NCBI GenBank assembly: GCA_022827265.1
Contig: JAJDTF010000018.1
Coordinates: 1-64,000 of the forward strand
Length of the DNA: 64,000 bases
Origin: Acidimicrobiia bacterium
GTDB taxonomy: Bacteria; Actinomycetota; Acidimicrobiia; Acidimicrobiales; Poriferisodalaceae
Direction: 5' to 3'
Shown: positions 1,020 through 45,875 of the stretch, one piece after another
Numbering within the stretch: position 1 is the stretch's first letter
How the letters are laid out: the number at the start of each line of letters is the position of its first letter
Position numbers and translations under genes: made by a program
Notes under the pieces: model-generated
Seen by the model: only the letters and a program-made list of their open reading frames with translations
The model's database searches: none
Told to the model about the DNA's origin: nothing

Positions 1020-4000
1020 GATTGCCTCCATCGTGGCAGCGCCCGCGTCTGTTGCGATCCCTTGATCGAAGCGATGTCGGGCATCGTGTCGGTCGCCAGT
1101 GCCTGAAATGTCATGTTCGATGCGCCTGAAATCAAGATCGTCTCCGGGGAATGACTCGCGCGGGCTGGTTGGTTCCTGTCGCGCAGAGGTCGGCGAGGCA
1201 GTCGGTTGCCAATGTTCCGAATACTGCCCGATTGTTCGGCGATGCGATGCAGATGCTCCGCTCCGCTCCGCTCCGCTCCGCTCCGCTCCGCTCCGCTCCG
1301 CTCCGCTCCGCTCCCAGCGTCCATAGCAGAAACGTCAATAGCGGGCGCGGATTGCGCAAGCAGATCGCTTACGGCTTTCGCCTGGGAGACAATTCGGTGG
1401 TCCTCATACAGCCAGAGCTTGGTAAATGGCCGGTACAGCACTTCGCGGATTCGGCCATCTTCGAATTCGATTTCGATGTCGCGCTTGAGCGAGTTCTTCA
1501 GCGTGTGAGTCCACTTGATGCTCTCAAGCTCGTCGTTAGCGGTCACGTCCTCGAAGGATGCTCCCCGCTTAATCGCTCGACGTGCACGTTCGTAGGCACT
1601 TATGAGTGCCCGAGTCTTGGCGACCAGAGATTCACGACTGAATGCGTACATGTAGAAGTCGCAGTTCGTTTTTGCGCCGAGGGCATGCGCTTCTATGATC
1701 GACTGATTGCTCGAAACTCCTTTGCCGGTTTCACATACCGGCAACAGCTCGCTGAATGACCCGTCTGTGAGATTCACCCAGTCGTGGGCGTCATTGACTG
1801 GCACTACCTCGAACTGATCGCTAGTGACATCGCCGAGTTCGGTCAGCCATGCGAGTTTCGCGTCGCGACCCGAGTTCAATGGAGTAGTTGCGTAGTGGAG
1901 CACCGCTGGCCGAGCTAGGTCTTTGTCAGTGTTGCGGACAAGGACTGTGACTTGCACACCCTGGCGCGAACTCTGACCAAAAACTTTGTCGCCCTCCTGT
2001 TTCCACTCGTCCTTCGACTTCGTCGCATCGCCCAAGAGATTCACGACATATATGTCCGTGAATTCATCCCGCAGCGAAGACCGCATCCCCGTGAGCGATG
2101 GCGCATTCGAAAGCGAATTGGGATGCACGAAAGCGACGATGCCTGCGCGGCGTTGTTCGCGGGCAGGGGTGTCGAGTCGGTCACAGGCCCAGCGGAACGA
2201 TTCGACGTAGAGGTTGCCTGAAGACGGCCCTGCACCTCGGCCAGTGACCTCGCGGTGCCTGCGGCCGTAGGTATCGCGCACTCGCTGCTCGATTTCGGGA
2301 TACGAGGGCCGAGGGTTGTCGTCGCCTGACGATTTCTGACCAGCTGACCAAGGTGGATTGCCGATGATGACTTGGATAGGGAGTTCGTTCTGCTGTCGGG
2401 CGCGGGCCGAGTTGTAACCGATCGTTCCCGTTCCGGGCAGGCTTGCGGGGTCGTGGGAGAACGTGTCGGTGAGCACGATACCGCTGAATGGTTCGTAGCT
2501 ACCGGTGCGCTCCCGGTAGCCCTCTTCGATCTTGATGGCGGCCAAGTAGTAGGCGAGCAGCACGATCTCGTTGGCGTGGATCTCTTGGACGCTGCCGCCC
2601 GGTACCAACGGGTTGTGCGTGTTGACGAACTTGCGCTCCAAGTCTTCGTCTGCGATCAGTGGCTCGCCGTCGCTGTTCTTCTGGGTGAGCAGACGGTTGA
2701 TGAACGTGCCCGTGCCCGTGAAGGGGTCCAAGATGTGGACATCTTTCGAGGTCAATCCTCGTCCGAACTCTTGGCGCAGCACAGCGTCGACCGACCGCAG
2801 CATGAAGTCGACGAGTTCCACAGGCGTGTAGACGATCCCCAGCCGAGTGATCTCGGCGGGCATGGCCTCCTTGAAAAACGACTCGTACACCTCCAGCATG
2901 ATCTTGAGTCGGGCATCGGAGTCGGCCGCGCCAGAGAGGCGGTTGCGGACGCTGTCGTAGAACCGGTCCAATGCGACCGTCTCGTCGCGAAGCCGGATGT
3001 CGGCAGCCTTGAACTCGTCAAGCAATTCGTTCAAGGCGGCGGAGATCGGGTTGCGGTCGGCGAAACCGCTGCCTGCGAAGAGCGCATCGAAGACGGGCAT
3101 CGTGACCACATGCTGTGCGACGAGCACCGCAAGGTCGCCAGACGGCAAGCTTCCGCCGATGGTGGCTTCCATCTGGTCGCCGAAGCGCTCGAACTTGGCG
3201 GCCAAGTCAGGGTTGGTCCCGACAGCGGTCCGCACATGCTCAGTGATGGTGCCGGTGATCCGCGCCACCTCACGGCCCCAGCGGTCCCAGTACTGACGAT
3301 CGCCGCAGGCGGCCACCAGCCGTGACGCAATGGCGTGCTCGAAGGGCAGACGTTGCTGGGTCACCTTGCCGTCGATGTCGCCGCTGCCGTCCTGCTCGCA
3401 TTCGCACTCGGCGTCGGCCCGACCGCACGTGCTGCACACGCCGCTCGGCAGGATGCTGATGGGCAGCCGCCCTGTCAGATCGGCTGTGTTGATCGCGACG
3501 TCAAGGCGTTCGTCGTGTGAGCGCAGGGCTTTGAGGACCTTCCAAACGGCCTTGAAGTCGGAGCCCGACAAGACTTGGTCGTCGAGCAGGCTTGCGCCGG
3601 AGGGAACCACCACTGGCAGGATCACGTAGCCGACATCTTTGTGCTCGGCGCGCCGCATCACGCGGCCGACGGCCTGTATGACGTCGATCTGTGACTGCTT
3701 CGGTTCGAGGAAGATCACGGCGTCCAATGCCGGCACGTCGATGCCTTCGGTGAGACAGCGGGCGTTGGTCACGATGCGGCAGGCGCCGTCGGGATCGCCT
3801 TGTCGCAGCCATGCAATTGTGTCGGCCCGTTCGAGCGCGTTCTTCGAGCCGTCGACGTGGCGTACGTCGCAGTCGAGCAGTTCGGCCCTATCGCCTGCCG
3901 CCGTCCGACCATGCACCGCAGCAGCCACTGCCTCGACGACGGGGTTCCAGTACCTCTCCACCAGTTGGGAGTTGCGGATTCGGTTGGTGAAGGCGATGAC

Positions 4001-36944: not shown

Positions 36945-38069
36945 TCAGTCTGACGAGGGTCCGGCGTCTCCGGCGACGGCACCGGCGATGGTGATGGTGC
37001 CGGAATGTCCGTCGGCGAGCTCGCCGATCACTGCGGCGCAATGGCCGTTGTCGCGCAGCTCACGGACAGCGTCATCGGCGCGTGCGGGATCGCAGCTGAA
37101 CAGCAGACCGCCCGAGGTCTGCGGGTCTCCGAGTACGGTGCGAGTGAGTTCGTCGCCGCCGTTGAGGCGCTCGGCGAGATGATCCAGGTTGCGCCCGGTG
37201 CCTCCGGGCACGAAGCCGCCAGTTGCGAGCCCGGTGACATCGGGCAGCAGTGGCACAGCGCCTGCATCCACCTCGGCACTCGCCCCGCTGGCCGCAGCGA
37301 GTTCTGCGAGGTGGCCCAGCAGGCCGAAGCCGGTCACATCGGTGGCCGCTGTGGCACCTGCCTCGACGGCCGCGGCGGCGGCCGCGTCGTTGAGCCGGCA
37401 CATCTCGGCTACGCCGGCCTCGTAGGCCGCATGCAATTTGCCGTCGGGCCCAGTGGCATCGGGTTCGGAACGCTTCAGCGCAGTCGCGAGCAGGCCGGTG
37501 CCGAGCGGCTTGGTGAGCACGAGGGCCTGGCCCGGCTGCCCGCCGGCATTGGTCAGCAGGCCCAATCCTCCGGCAGCAGCTGCGATGGTGCCGGTCACCG
37601 ACATTCCGTAGAGCGGCTCGGGTGCGTCAATGGTGTGACCGCCGGCTACCACCCAGCCGCCGTCGGCCGCGGCATCAGCGCCGCCGGCGAGCACCTCGCC
37701 CAGCAAGTCCAGCGGGAGCACATCGCGGGGCCAGGCCGCCAGGTTGAGGGCGAACAGCGGGCTGGCGCCCATGGCGTAGATGTCGCTCGCGGCGTTGGCG
37801 GCCGCAATGCGCCCCCACGTGCGGGCATCGTCCACGATCGGCGCGAAGAAATCAGTCGACGCCACCAGCAGCCGGTCGCCGTCGAGGCGCCACACGGCAG
37901 CATCGTCGCTGGTGTCGGTGCCCACCAGCAGATCCGGATGCGACGGGGGAGTCAGATGGCGCAGAACCTGCGCCAGCTCGGAAGGTCCGAGCTTGCACGC
38001 TCAGCCCGCACCGTGGCTGTACTGGCTCAGCCGGAACGCCGGGCTGTTCGCGGTGCTGTCGGTCGGCAC
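36945..38069 (-). CDS. selD: Selenide, water dikinase, itself a selenoprotein (Sec23)
   Basis: SelD makes selenophosphate, the Se donor for Sec-tRNA. The frame contains an in-frame TGA at 38001-38003. Before it is FRLSQYSHGAG and after it ACKLGPSELAQVLRHL, exactly the SelD active-site loop where Cys or Sec stands. The downstream frame has GTDTSDDAAVWRL, STDFFAPIVDD and TDVTGFGLLGHL. A SECIS-like hairpin follows at 37957-37975. A reading without Sec would start at 37925 and lose the active site. Start is uncertain; GTG 38069 is used. Confidence 0.93.
37957..37975 (-). promoter_or_regulatory. Bacterial SECIS-like hairpin of selD
   Basis: On the mRNA, TGGCGCA-GGTTC-TGCGCCA forms a perfect 7-bp stem with a GGU-starting loop about 32 nt after the UGA, the spacing and loop type of bacterial SECIS elements. 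A second 8-bp hairpin (37975-37993) lies between UGA and this stem. Confidence 0.75.
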
Positions 38070-39962: not shown

Positions 39963-42917
39963 TCAGTCGGTTTCGAAAGCGCGAGGGTCGGGGCAGGCGC
40001 ACATGAGGTTGCGGTCGCCGTAGGCGCCGTCGATGCGGCTCACCGGCGGCCAGTACTTGTCGGCCACGAGCGTCGCCACGGCGGTGCCTGCCGGGTAGGC
40101 GGCCTCGGTGCGCGAGTAGGGGTGCTCCCACTCGTCGGCCAGTACGTCGATGGCTGTGTGGGGCGCGTTGGCGAGCGGGTTGTCGTCGGCCGGCCACTCG
40201 CCCCCCGCAACCTTGTCGATCTCGGACCGGATCGTCGCCATCGCATCGCAGAACCGGTCGATCTCCGCCAGTGACTCGCTCTCGGTGGGCTCGATCATCA
40301 GCGTCCCCGCCACCGGGAACGACATGGTCGGAGCGTGGAATCCGAAGTCGATGAGGCGCTTGGCCACGTCGTCCACGCTGGCCCACTCCGAGAACGGCCG
40401 CAGGTCCACGATGCACTCGTGCGCGACCAGCCCGTAGCGGCCCTGGTACAGGATCGGGAAGTGCTCGCCGAGCCGCGAGGCCAGGTAGTTGGCCGACAGG
40501 ATCGCCGTCTGGGTGGCTCGGGTGAGGCCCTCGACGCCCATCATGGCGATGTACATCCAGGGGATCGGCAGGATGCCCGCCGAGCCCCACGGCGCCGATG
40601 AGATCGCTCCCGGGCCGGTCGCGGGGCCGGCGTCGGGTGCCAGCGGGTGGTTGGGCAGGTACTTGGCCAGGTGCAGGCCGCACGCCACCGGTCCGATGCC
40701 CGGCCCGCCGCCGCCGTGGGGAATGCAGAACGTCTTGTGCAGGTTGAGGTGGCTGACGTCGGCGCCGAACGTGCCCGGTGCAGCGAGGCCGACGAGGGCG
40801 TTGAGGTTGGCGCCGTCCACGTAGACCTGCCCGCCCGCTTCGTGCACCTTGAGACAGACCTGCCGGATGCCGTCTTCATAGACACCATGTGTCGAGGGAT
40901 AGGTGGCCATGAACGCGGCGAGTTGATTGCCGTGCTCGGCGATCTTGGCGTCGAGGTCGTCGAGGTCAACATCGCCGTCGTCGGTGCAGCCCACCACCAC
41001 GACCCGCATGCCGGCCATCACCGCAGACGCCGCGTTGGTGCCGTGCGCGGAGGAGGGGATGAGGCACACGGTGCGGTGGGTGTCGCCGCGGTCGTCGTGG
41101 TAGCCACGGATGGCGAGCAACCCGGCCAGCTCGCCCTGCGAACCCGCATTGGGCTGCAACGACACGGCGTCGTAGCCGGTGACCGCCGCCAGCCACCGTT
41201 CGAGGTCGGCGATGATCTGGCGGTAGCCCTCCCATTGGTCCTGCGGCGCGAACGGGTGGATGTCGGCGAACTGCGGCCAGGTCACCGGGGTCATCTCCGC
41301 TGCGGCGTTGAGCTTCATCGTGCAGCTGCCCAGCGGGATCATCGACCGGTCCAGTGCCACGTCGTACGAGGCCAGACGGCGCAGGTAGCGCATCATCTCG
41401 GTTTCGGTGCGGTAGGAGTGGAACGTGGGGTGCGTGAGGTACTCGCTGGTGCGCCGCAGCTCGCTTGCGATGCCCGACGGCGCCGAAGCCGCCAGCTCTG
41501 CCACCGTGTCGACATCGGTTGACCTGCCGCCTCCGGCCATTCCGAGTGCATCCAGGAGGTGCGCGACCGTTGCCTCGTCGCAGGTCTCATCCAGCGAGAT
41601 GCTGAACGTGTCTGCGTCGACACGGCGCAGGTTGAAACCCGCTGCGAGCGCAGCGTCCACGACGAGGTCGGCACCGCCGGCGACCTCCACCGTCAGCGTG
41701 TCGAAGAAGGTGCTGTTGCGCACCGACAGTCGGCCTGACGTGTCGTCGGGGGCGCCGCGTGGCGTGCCGCTCGACCCGATGGTCCGCAGGCCAGCGGCGA
41801 GCGCCGCCGTCAGCCGATGCACGCGCTCAGCGATGCCCGCCAAACCTTCGGGGCCGTGCCACACCGCATACATCGAGGCCACGACGGCGAGCAGCACCTG
41901 CGCGGTGCAGATGTTGCTGGTGGCGCGCTCGCGCCGGATGTGCTGCTCACGGGTCTGCAGCGCCAGCCGGTACGCGGTCCTGCCGGCCGCGTCCACCGAG
42001 ACGCCCACGAGCCGTCCCGGCATCGAGCGGCGGTGCTTCTCGCTGGTCGCGAGGAATGCTGCATGCGGGCCGCCGAAGCCGAGCGGCACGCCGAAGCGCT
42101 GCGAGCTGCCCACCACGATGTCGGCGCCCTGCTCGCCGGGCGGCTGCAGCACGCAGCACGCCAGCAGGTCGGCCGTGACGGCCGCAACCGCACCCGTGTC
42201 GTGCAGGGCTTCGATCACTGGCTGAAGGTTGCGGACAGCGCCGCTGCTGCCGGGATACGCCAGCAACGCTCCGTACACCTCCGCAGGTTCCAGATCGGTC
42301 GCCGGGTCGCCCGCCACGATGTCGATGCCGAGCGGCTGGGCACGTGTGCGAACCACATCGATGACTTGGGGATGGCAGTCGGCATCGACGAAGAAGCAGT
42401 CCGGCCCGCTGCGTGTGATGCGCCGCGCCATGGCCATCGCCTCGGCGGCCGCGGTGCCCTCGCACAGCAGCGATGAGTTGGCGATCTCCATTCCCACCAG
42501 GTCGCACACCATCGTCTGGTAGTTGAGCAAGGCCTCGAGTCGCCCCTGGGAGATCTCGGGCTGGTACGGCGTGTATGCCGTGTACCACGACGGGTCTTCC
42601 AGCACGCCGCGCCGGATGACTGCAGGTGTGAGGGTGCCGTAGTAGCCTAGCCCGATCAACGAGTGCGCAGCCGTGTTGGCGTTCGCCAGCCAGCGCATCG
42701 CTGCGGTGGCTTCCGTCTCGGTGAGAGGCCGGTCGATGCCGTCGAGCACGATCGGCTCGTCGATGCGGATCTCGGCGGGCACGGCGGCATCGACGAGGTC
42801 GGTCAGCGAGCTGAACCCGAGCCGCTTGAGCATGACAGCAACGTCGTCCGGCCCCAGGCCGATGTGACGTGCTGCGAATGCCCCTTCTGCGCTCGTCGGT
42901 ACCGGGGGTTCACTCAT
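39963..42917 (-). CDS. gcvP: Glycine dehydrogenase (decarboxylating), P protein
   Basis: Homodimeric-type P protein of 984 aa. It decarboxylates glycine with PLP and loads aminomethyl onto GcvH. The PLP lysine is in [21 protein letters not shown]-terminal [18 protein letters not shown] and [19 protein letters not shown], and C-terminal [18 protein letters not shown] are as expected for full length. It is 86 nt downstream of gcvT. No glycine riboswitch was seen in the short leaders here. Confidence 0.97.
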
Positions 42918-43003: not shown

Positions 43004-44146
43004 TCACGACGGCCGCCAGTAGCGGTGTTCCACGAACGGCAGCGGGGCGACCCGGCATGGCTCGGTGCCCTTGCGACCCTCGGCAAACAGCTCCGTGCCG
43101 TCAGCCGAATGCTCGGACGCCACATAGGCCATGGCGATCGGCGTTTCGACGGTCGGGCCGTAGCCGCCGCTGGTCACTATCCCGACGCTGGCACCGGCGG
43201 CGTCGGTCAGCGCGGCGCCGTCGCGAATCGGCCGGCGGCCCTCGGCTGCGATGCCAACGCGCTGGCGCGGCGACCCGTCGCGCAGCTGCGCCGTGATGAT
43301 CTCCGCGCCGGGAAATCCGGCCTCAGCGCGCCGTCGCTTCGGGATCGACCAACCCAGCCCGGCCTCGGCGGGGGTCGTCGCCTCGGTGAGTTCGTGGCCG
43401 ACCAGCGGCAGGCCCGCTTCGAGGCGCAGCGTGTCGCGGGCGCCGAGCCCTGCGGGGGCAACTTCGTCAGCGTCCAGCAGCAGCCGTGCAATATGCATCG
43501 CCTCACTCGCCGGGATGGCGACTTCGAATCCGTCCTCGCCGGTGTACCCGCAGCGCGACACCTCGCACTCGACGCCGTCGATCGGCAGCGTGGATGTCGA
43601 CATGAACGCCAGATCGGCGGCTGCGGGCGTCAACTGGGCCAGCACGTCGACCGCTGCGGGACCTTGCAGTGCAATAAGCGCCAGGTCGGTTCGCACCTCG
43701 ATGCGTACATCGCCATCGTCGCCGCCGCCGTTGGCTTCCCGCAGCATCGACAGATCGGCCTCGGTGCGCACCGCATTGACCACGATGCGCAGCCGGTCGG
43801 CATGACACGACACGATCAGGTCGTCGAGCACGCCGCCCGCAGCCGTTGTGAACAGCGTGTACCTCATCCGTCCCGGGGCAAGGCTGGTGATAGCGCCCGG
43901 CACGCAGCGTTCCAGCCAAGCCGCCACATCGTGCACTTCGTCTCCGGCGGCGGGATGCAGCTCGACAATGCCCATGTGGCTGACATCGAACAGTCCGGCC
44001 GCCGCGCGGGTGGCGCGGTGCTCGGCAACGGTGCCGTCGCCGTAGCGCATCGGCAGCGCGTGGCCGCCGAAGTTGACCATCCGGCCGCCGAGTTCGGTGT
44101 GCAGGTCGAACAGCGGGGTGCGTACGCCGCCGTTGGCGTCAGTCAT
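43004..44146 (-). CDS. gcvT: Aminomethyltransferase, T protein of glycine cleavage
   Basis: The folate-dependent T protein of 380 aa shows LFDLHTELGGRMVNFGGHALPM, FDVSHMGIVEL, SRCGYTGEDGFEVAIP and GLGARDTLRLEAGLPL in order. Its start is 19 nt after the stop of the Sec-ArsC gene, so the reductase and glycine cleavage genes are probably one transcript. gcvH is elsewhere (7891). Confidence 0.96.
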   Translation of the reverse strand: MTDANGGVRTPLFDLHTELGGRMVNFGGHALPMRYGDGTVAEHRATRAAAGLFDVSHMGIVELHPAAGDEVHDVAAWLERCVPGAITSLAPGRMRYTLFTTAAGGVLDDLIVSCHADRLRIVVNAVRTEADLSMLREANGGGDDGDVRIEVRTDLALIALQGPAAVDVLAQLTPAAADLAFMSTSTLPIDGVECEVSRCGYTGEDGFEVAIPASEAMHIARLLLDADEVAPAGLGARDTLRLEAGLPLVGHELTEATTPAEAGLGWSIPKRRRAEAGFPGAEIITAQLRDGSPRQRVGIAAEGRRPIRDGAALTDAAGASVGIVTSGGYGPTVETPIAMAYVASEHSADGTELFAEGRKGTEPCRVAPLPFVEHRYWRPS

Positions 44147-44165: not shown

Positions 44166-44525
44166 TCAGTCGGCCAGCAGCTCGGCGATGCGACCCTTCG
44201 GACGACCGACGATGGCCCGGTTGCCGCGCACCACGACGGGACGCTGCATGAGCGCCTTGCGTCGGCTCAGCAGCTCCACCACTGCGTCGGCGTTGCCGAC
44301 GTAGTCATCGGCGTTCAGGTTCAGCTTCTTGAACTGCGAGTCCTTGCGCACCAGGTCTTCGACGGGGTCCTCGAGTATCGACACCAAGTGTTCGAGCGTC
44401 TCCCGGTCGGGCGGCGTCTTCATGTAGAGGACGACATCGGCCTCCACTCCAGCTTCCTCGGCGACCGCCAAGGCACTCCGGGAAGAGTTTCAATGCGGGT
44501 TGTGGTAGATCGTCACTTCGGACAT
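44166..44525 (-). CDS. ArsC/Spx-family reductase with selenocysteine at the active site (Sec12)
   Basis: From ATG 44525 the product reads MSEVTIYHNPH, an in-frame TGA at 44490-44492, then NSSRSALAVAEEAG. The standard ArsC site is YHNP-x-C-x-x-S-R-x-AL; the catalytic Cys is replaced by the UGA. The rest is canonical (KKLNLNADDYVGNADAVVELL; MQRPVVVRGNRAIVGRP). A SECIS-like hairpin follows. ArsC reduces arsenate with a thiol; Sec would make the site more reactive. The substrate may differ from arsenate. Length of 119 aa is normal. Confidence 0.88.
44456..44473 (-). promoter_or_regulatory. Bacterial SECIS-like hairpin of the Sec-ArsC gene
   Basis: CCTTGGC-GGTC-GCCGAGG forms a 7-bp stem (one G-U) with the loop GGUC, the loop type of known bacterial SECIS elements, beginning 16 nt after the UGA (loop at about 24 nt). 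Confidence 0.75.
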
Positions 44526-44579: not shown

Positions 44580-45875
44580 TCACGGCAGCAACGCCGAAAG
44601 CGGTCGCTCCGTGCTCAGCGGTGTCGCCGAGGCGTCGGCGGCTTCGACTTCCTCACGCGTGACGCCCAGCATGAACAGGATCGCGTCCAGGTACGGCACG
44701 TTCACGGTGGTGTCGGCCGCATCGGCAACCACCGGCTTGGCGTTGAAGGCGATGCCGAGCCCGGCTGCCGTCAGCATGGGGAGATCGTTGGCCCCGTCGC
44801 CCACCGCCACGATCTGCTCCAGCGGCACACCCTCGATGTAGGCAAGCTGGCGCAGCAGCCGCGCCTTGGCCTCGGCGTCGATCACCTCGCCGACCACCTC
44901 GCCGGTCAGCCTGCCGTCGCGGATCTCGAGCTCGTTCGCGTAGGCGTGATCGAACTTGAACCGCTTCGCGAGGTGATCGGTGAAGTGCGTGAAGCCGCCC
45001 GAGATGATCGCCACCTTGTAGCCCAGCCGCTTCAGGGTGCGGGCGAAGGTGCGGGCGCCCCGCGTGAGATTCATGTGCACAATGGCCGTGTCGATGATCG
45101 CGACGGGCTGGCCGGTCAGCAGCCTCACCCGCTGGCGCAGCGCCGTCTCGAAGTCGATCTCGCCGGCCATGGCCGCGGCGGTCAGCTCCGCCGAGCGAGC
45201 TTCGTGCCCGGCCTCGGCGGCCAGCAGGTCGATCACCTCGTTGCGGATCAGGGTGGAATCCACGTCCATCACGATCATGCGGGTCGAGCGCCGTGACAGG
45301 CCGTGGGGCTGAACCGCGATGTCGATCCGGCGGTCTGCGGCCACCTCGATCAGGTCGGTTCGCAGCTTGTCGCTCTCCGCTCCTTCGACCAGGAACTCGT
45401 AGCTCCACACCGGGAAGCGGGAGAGGCGGTGGATGCGGTCGATGTTCCCGCCGCTGGCGGCGATGGCCCCGGTCACGACCGACAGGTCGGCGGGCTTGAG
45501 CTCGGGCGCCAAGGCGGTCACCACGAGACGCTCCGCATGCTTGGTCGGCGTGGCGTCGACGACCTCGAAGTTCATCTCCAGGCCCCGCTCGTAGCCGAAC
45601 AGCAGAACCTCTTTGACGAGGTCTCGGCCTGCAGGAACCGTGATCGCGAGCCCGAGCGTGAGCTGGCGGCGGACGACGACCTGCTCCATGTCCTGCACGT
45701 CCGCGCCGGCACCCGAGAGCAGTGCCAGCAGGTCGGTGGTGATGCCTGGGCCGTCGGGGCCGGTCACCCGGATGAGGATCGTGTCCCTGGGCGCACTGTC
45801 GTCCGCTGAATCGCCGGCAGCATCGTCGGCGCCGCCGCCGGCAGCGTCGTCGGCTGCATTGTCGTCAGGGGCCAT
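44580..45875 (-). CDS. serB: Phosphoserine phosphatase with N-terminal ACT domains
   Basis: The 431-aa protein starts with an acidic Ala/Asp-rich stretch, then ACT-type regulatory domains (RVTGPDGPGITTDLLALL ... LVVTALAPEL). The HAD catalytic domain has MDVDSTLIRNEVIDLLA as motif I and VGDGANDLPML as the last motif. It makes serine from phosphoserine; the ACT domains likely sense serine or glycine. It lies 54 nt upstream of the Sec-ArsC gene, close to glycine cleavage genes. Confidence 0.94.
   Translation of the reverse strand: MAPDDNAADDAAGGGADDAAGDSADDSAPRDTILIRVTGPDGPGITTDLLALLSGAGADVQDMEQVVVRRQLTLGLAITVPAGRDLVKEVLLFGYERGLEMNFEVVDATPTKHAERLVVTALAPELKPADLSVVTGAIAASGGNIDRIHRLSRFPVWSYEFLVEGAESDKLRTDLIEVAADRRIDIAVQPHGLSRRSTRMIVMDVDSTLIRNEVIDLLAAEAGHEARSAELTAAAMAGEIDFETALRQRVRLLTGQPVAIIDTAIVHMNLTRGARTFARTLKRLGYKVAIISGGFTHFTDHLAKRFKFDHAYANELEIRDGRLTGEVVGEVIDAEAKARLLRQLAYIEGVPLEQIVAVGDGANDLPMLTAAGLGIAFNAKPVVADAADTTVNVPYLDAILFMLGVTREEVEAADASATPLSTERPLSALLP

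Follow-up and report, generated by a model that had tools for sequence, protein, structure and literature searches.

An ArsC-family gene with a predicted selenocysteine codon at its catalytic position in Acidimicrobiia

The arsC locus, its neighbours and the selenocysteine machinery

The window, meaning the whole 64,000-nucleotide stretch of DNA analysed here, carries a gene of the ArsC family on its minus strand (44166..44525), beginning with an ATG at 44525 and comprising 119 codons and a stop. The original prediction had placed the gene at exactly these coordinates, leaving its strand unstated. Codon 12 is an in-frame TGA (44490..44492, minus strand), which we read as selenocysteine (Sec), and the terminal stop is itself a TGA (44168-44166, minus strand). 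The residues that precede codon 12 (MSEVTIYHNPH) and those that follow it (NSSRSALAV... / NSSRSALAVAEEAG...) are canonical for ArsC and lie in one frame, as had been predicted, and the TGA sits within the ArsC motif HNP-x-U-x-x-S, here HNPH-U-NSS. With a residue placed at the TGA, the protein matches the ArsC profile PF03960 over residues 7-115 with 55.1 bits, against a gathering cut-off of 24. The nearest solved relative is 3rdw, a putative arsenate reductase (E 5.5e-20), and R773 arsenate reductases are also among the nearest; in the alignment with these structures, the TGA falls exactly over the catalytic Cys12 of R773 ArsC. The sequence alone gives a firm fold assignment. Gene callers that treat TGA as a stop would report only a 101-residue ORF from a TTG at 44471, which lacks the active site, confirming the loss that had been foreseen for a downstream TTG start.

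Upstream of arsC lies serB (44580..45875, minus strand), and downstream lie gcvT (43004..44146, minus strand), whose start is 19 nt past the arsC stop, and gcvP (39963..42917, minus strand). The order ilvD (divergent), serB, arsC(Sec), gcvT, gcvP holds across the window’s genus, and none of these neighbours is an ars gene. In two fully read loci from other genera, an enoyl-CoA hydratase-like ORF, named from its sequence, lies between serB and arsC. The gene had been described as running directly into gcvT and gcvP. This is true of the window’s genus, with its 19-nt spacing, but in other genera of the family arsC and gcvT are set apart by a glycine riboswitch (RF00504, 60-66 bits), as found in 10 of 10 such loci tested (L089, L092, L093, L098, L099, L104, L107, L111, L116 and L129, at about 3434-3543). 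The same riboswitch was sought before gcvT in the window and was not found. Its position in the other genera indicates that their gcv operon begins downstream of arsC, so the direct arsC-gcvT run is a local arrangement, and the loci do not support a functional tie to glycine cleavage.

The genome, which is 93% complete and spans 3.8 Mb over 163 contigs, was searched for the Sec machinery, the check that had been proposed for this gene, and tRNA-Sec, selA, selB and selD were all found. There is one strong tRNA-Sec match (67 bits, anticodon TCA), and selA (380 bits) adjoins selB (273 bits) on contig C65. The single copy of selD in the genome, encoding selenide, water dikinase, lies inside the window (36945..38069, minus strand), 6.5 kb from arsC, with a putative GTG start at 38069 and its end taken from the read-through frame. 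It matches TIGR00476 with 355 bits with one TGA inside, and with 361.6 bits when read through. This in-frame TGA (38001..38003, minus strand) falls in the motif GAG-U-ACK, the known Sec/Cys site of SelD, and is followed by a SECIS-type hairpin (37957..37975, minus strand; UGGCGCAG-GUU-CUGCGCCA; z -2.5 for a 59-nt stretch). By these features selD appears to be a selenoprotein gene too, which a standard caller would likewise truncate.

Frames that read through TGA would appear identical at the gene level if the codon were decoded as Cys, Trp or another residue, through a genome-wide code change or a suppressor tRNA. Against this, TGA also serves as a stop in this genome, the arsC terminator being one; the full Sec set is present; and TGA recurs both at the ArsC Cys position, with a conserved hairpin, and at the known Sec/Cys site of SelD. 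We consider decoding as a residue other than Sec very improbable.

Conservation of the TGA codon and its downstream hairpin

Folding predicts a SECIS-type hairpin at 44456..44473 (minus strand), with a 7-bp stem (CCUUGGC/GCCGAGG) and a GGUC loop at 44466-44463 (minus strand). It begins 16 nt past the TGA and is conserved in relatives, in agreement with the earlier claim of a GGUC-loop hairpin at the right distance. The single-sequence fold is weak (z -1.5 for the 48 nt from the TGA and -0.6 for 113 nt), and for this reason we did not rely on folding to prove the point. When the whole window was searched naively for TGA followed by a GU-loop hairpin, 11 matches came up. Only two of these, in arsC and selD, are in frame with identified genes; the other places, outside such frames, were set aside as chance.

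Comparison across relatives, by contrast, is decisive. In an alignment of 68 distinct sequences, 95.8% of stem cells were paired, versus 29-69% when one arm was slid, and both sides of a pair had changed in 15 cells, versus 0-4 with the partner slid. The compensatory changes seen include G-C to A-U and U-A to G-C. At L117 and L126, G-C replaces a U-A pair and the amino acids encoded by both arms are altered, so the fold of the RNA has been preserved at the expense of the protein sequence. Synonymous sites, compared across 59 TGA genes whose lengths are similar, tell of the same constraint: codons +6 to +11, the very codons that form the hairpin, are almost frozen (GCC TTG/TTA GCG GTC GCC/GCT GAG), and flanking positions are free to vary. 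At Leu +7 all 55 sequences have TTG or TTA and none has CTN, although at the gene's other Leu codons TTG/TTA account for about 16% and CTN for about 84%. All 55 likewise use GTC for Val +9.

The GGUC loop, which contains the GU typical of a bacterial SECIS apical loop, is kept in 64 of the 68 distinct sequences, the four exceptions being L051, L053, L054 and L055. L053 and L054 have a CGUGC loop on a stem of 6-7 bp, and L055 belongs to a second Sec-ArsC subfamily described below; the hairpin search found no simple 5-bp stem in L051. More broadly, four TGA forms (L053, L054, L138 and L145) are followed by hairpins that differ from the common type in both sequence and position, for example CGUGC on GCAAUGC, suggesting that the SECIS was rebuilt while Sec was retained. 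Neither the arsC stem nor the GGUC loop is present in the aligned Cys homologues. Weak by itself, the predicted hairpin is raised above chance, together with its TGA, by this comparative evidence.

The codon is conserved along with the hairpin. The first set of related loci, assembled from 61 relatives and a scan of species genomes that reached some genomes twice, gave 109 aligned codons at position 12: 100 TGA, 8 TGC and 1 TGT. This bears out the placement of the in-frame TGA at the catalytic Cys of ArsC, where 9 of the homologues have a Cys codon. A single TGA in this protein was seen in 40 of the 61 relatives, and the distinct homologous sequences with TGA number 73, drawn from many genera and two phyla. 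Within the window’s genus, the proteins are 90-96% identical along their full length. A genome lacking the Sec machinery, or homologues with a stop in place and no conservation after it, had been named as possible refutations; instead, the machinery is present, and the relatives keep the TGA and conserve the frame beyond it.

These data bear directly on whether the TGA could be a real stop, arising by nonsense mutation or sequencing error in a pseudogene whose remainder is decaying or yields a truncated protein from the TTG. The 101-residue ORF from TTG 44471 is compatible with such a history, as this is what a standard gene caller would report. Yet the identical TGA is found in all 73 of those distinct homologues, protein-level constraint extends to both sides of it, the synonymous freeze is restricted to the hairpin codons, and selA was found in 74 of 74 genomes that carry the TGA form. 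Conservation across homologues refutes a pseudogene or error, and we assign that explanation a negligible probability. The gene instead almost certainly encodes a genuine ArsC-family (PF03960) selenoprotein with Sec predicted at UGA codon 12. UGA-coded Sec at the ArsC catalytic position, the central claim of the original prediction, is thus supported by the Sec machinery and by homologues that keep the TGA.

Distribution of the Sec and Cys forms

The TGA form is present in 35 of 37 genomes of the window’s bacterial family; the other two, both about 85% complete, gave no ArsC match. Across the class, a homologue was found in 101 of 296 genomes and the TGA form in 37 of 296. Sec is the usual form of ArsC in this family of Acidimicrobiia. 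The suggestion that Sec is uncommon may hold for ArsC proteins in general, but it does not hold here. The TGA form also tracks the Sec machinery, since all 74 of its genomes have selA, versus 34 of 65 genomes with only Cys forms (Fisher p 4e-13, uncorrected for kinship). On a tree of 103 proteins, rough because it was built from few columns, the Sec/Cys label changes 7 times, and at least 3 of these changes are forced by strongly supported branches.

Three matches with two TGA codons (G291, G301 and G083) were examined as possible double-Sec proteins and rejected, the second TGA being the terminal stop. A second, distant Sec-ArsC subfamily has the motif NPGUG (L055, L130-L132, L134, L136, L137 and L141-L144). 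Some of its members have Ala for the Ser of UxxS, their hairpins are unlike the GGUC type, and the gene is at times a second copy beside the first Sec-ArsC in the same genome. On three contigs named as Verrucomicrobiota (L118, L124 and L125), we found a Sec-ArsC of the Acidimicrobiia type, its hairpin sequence unchanged. The three proteins nest among those of Acidimicrobiia and their genomes have selA, which suggests a likely horizontal transfer of the gene and its SECIS together; these contigs may also have been mis-binned.

Catalytic site, candidate substrates and known relatives

The roles of His8, Asn9, Pro10, Ser15, Arg60, Arg94 and Arg107 are established for R773 ArsC, and the window protein keeps all seven. 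Arg60, Arg94 and Arg107 show no variation among the homologues compared, 90 of them Sec and 13 of them Cys forms. The same positions (H8, N9, P10, S15, R60, R94 and R107), together with position 12, are what the window protein shares with R773 ArsC (1i9d/1jzw) and 3rdw. R773 ArsC differs in having Cys12 and about 140 residues, whereas the window protein has Sec at 12 and ends at residue 119.

A mechanism can be proposed. During translation, SelB with Sec-tRNA(Sec) would bind the GGUC-loop hairpin, and Sec would be inserted at UGA codon 12 to give the active site HNPH-U-NSS. By analogy with R773 ArsC, His8 would lie near the selenolate and Arg60, Arg94 and Arg107 would surround the oxyanion site. 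The selenolate would attack an oxyanion or an oxidised substrate, and a low-molecular-weight thiol or a thioredoxin-fold partner would resolve the Se-adduct. An external resolving agent is proposed because UxxS, with no second Cys, offers a single redox residue. The protein is likely a reductase, and its chemistry is most likely of the ArsC type, with a selenolate replacing the thiolate and an external thiol resolving the adduct. A search for MshC, with mycothiol in mind as the reductant, gave two matches of nearly equal score, 425 and 416 bits, both short of the 485-bit cut-off.

By analogy with the family, the substrate is probably, though not certainly, arsenate. It is also quite possible, if short of probable, that the selenoprotein is a selenol-dependent reductase acting on something else, as could be the case for many ArsC/YfgD/Spx-like proteins. 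Several observations fit such a role. With Cys in place of Sec, the protein scores 92.5 bits on the TIGR00014 arsC equivalog, under its cut-off of 106.05; the closest solved relative, 3rdw, has no firmer annotation than ‘putative arsenate reductase’; and the surrounding genes are serB, gcvT and gcvP rather than ars genes. Neither of the arsenite exporters Acr3 and ArsB was found in the 93%-complete genome, so that arsenate detoxification is unsupported by context. Against a different substrate, the protein retains His8, position 12, Arg60, Arg94 and Arg107 of R773 ArsC, and arsenite may exit by routes besides ArsB and Acr3, in a genome that is incomplete. More tentatively, the Sec-ArsC proteins of Acidimicrobiia might be housekeeping Se-dependent reductases of another oxyanion or an oxidised thiol rather than arsenate-resistance enzymes. 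If true, this would explain why 35 of 37 genomes of the family carry Sec-ArsC while the genome examined here shows neither common exporter.

Sec-ArsC is not new as a kind, having been in the literature, from ocean metagenomes, since 2005. The Sargasso Sea selenoproteome included a Sec-containing arsenate reductase with UxxS, represented by 14 sequences (PMC1088965), and the GOS survey listed ‘Arsenate reductase (ArsC) 1, pfam03960, UxxS’ with 77 sequences (PMC2398784). ArsC-like selenoproteins are also known in sequenced bacteria (PMC1794560), and Sec-containing ArsC appears in the table of a 2026 review (PMC13188914). Our literature search found no paper that ties selenoproteins to Acidimicrobiia by name, a silence that is a reporting gap and does not point to a new kind of protein. 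The window protein and the Sec-ArsC 1 of the Sargasso Sea and GOS data belong to one family, and both have UxxS, Sec at the site of the catalytic Cys, and a bacterial SECIS shortly after it. The earlier sequences are metagenomic, whereas the present data join an Acidimicrobiia host and its full Sec machinery to SECIS covariation and to the distribution of Sec and Cys forms. The main practical value of the finding lies in correct annotation, as the locus is a clean, well-supported case of a gene truncated by standard annotation, from an actinobacterial lineage that is large and for the most part uncultured. In addition, the natural Sec/Cys pairs within one class would permit a direct test of the benefit of Sec to ArsC.

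Two other groups share features with the window protein. Sec arsenate reductase 2, or arsenate reductase-like (cd03032 or NF041106, UxxC; PMC2398784, PMC13188914), has an ArsC-related thioredoxin-like fold with Sec, as does the window protein, but its motif is UxxC rather than UxxS, and the NF041106 profile gave no match in the window protein. Spx/MgsR (TIGR01617) belongs to the same fold superfamily; its site is CxxC in contrast to UxxS here, and the window protein matches its profile weakly, with 51.4 bits against a cut-off of 75.05.
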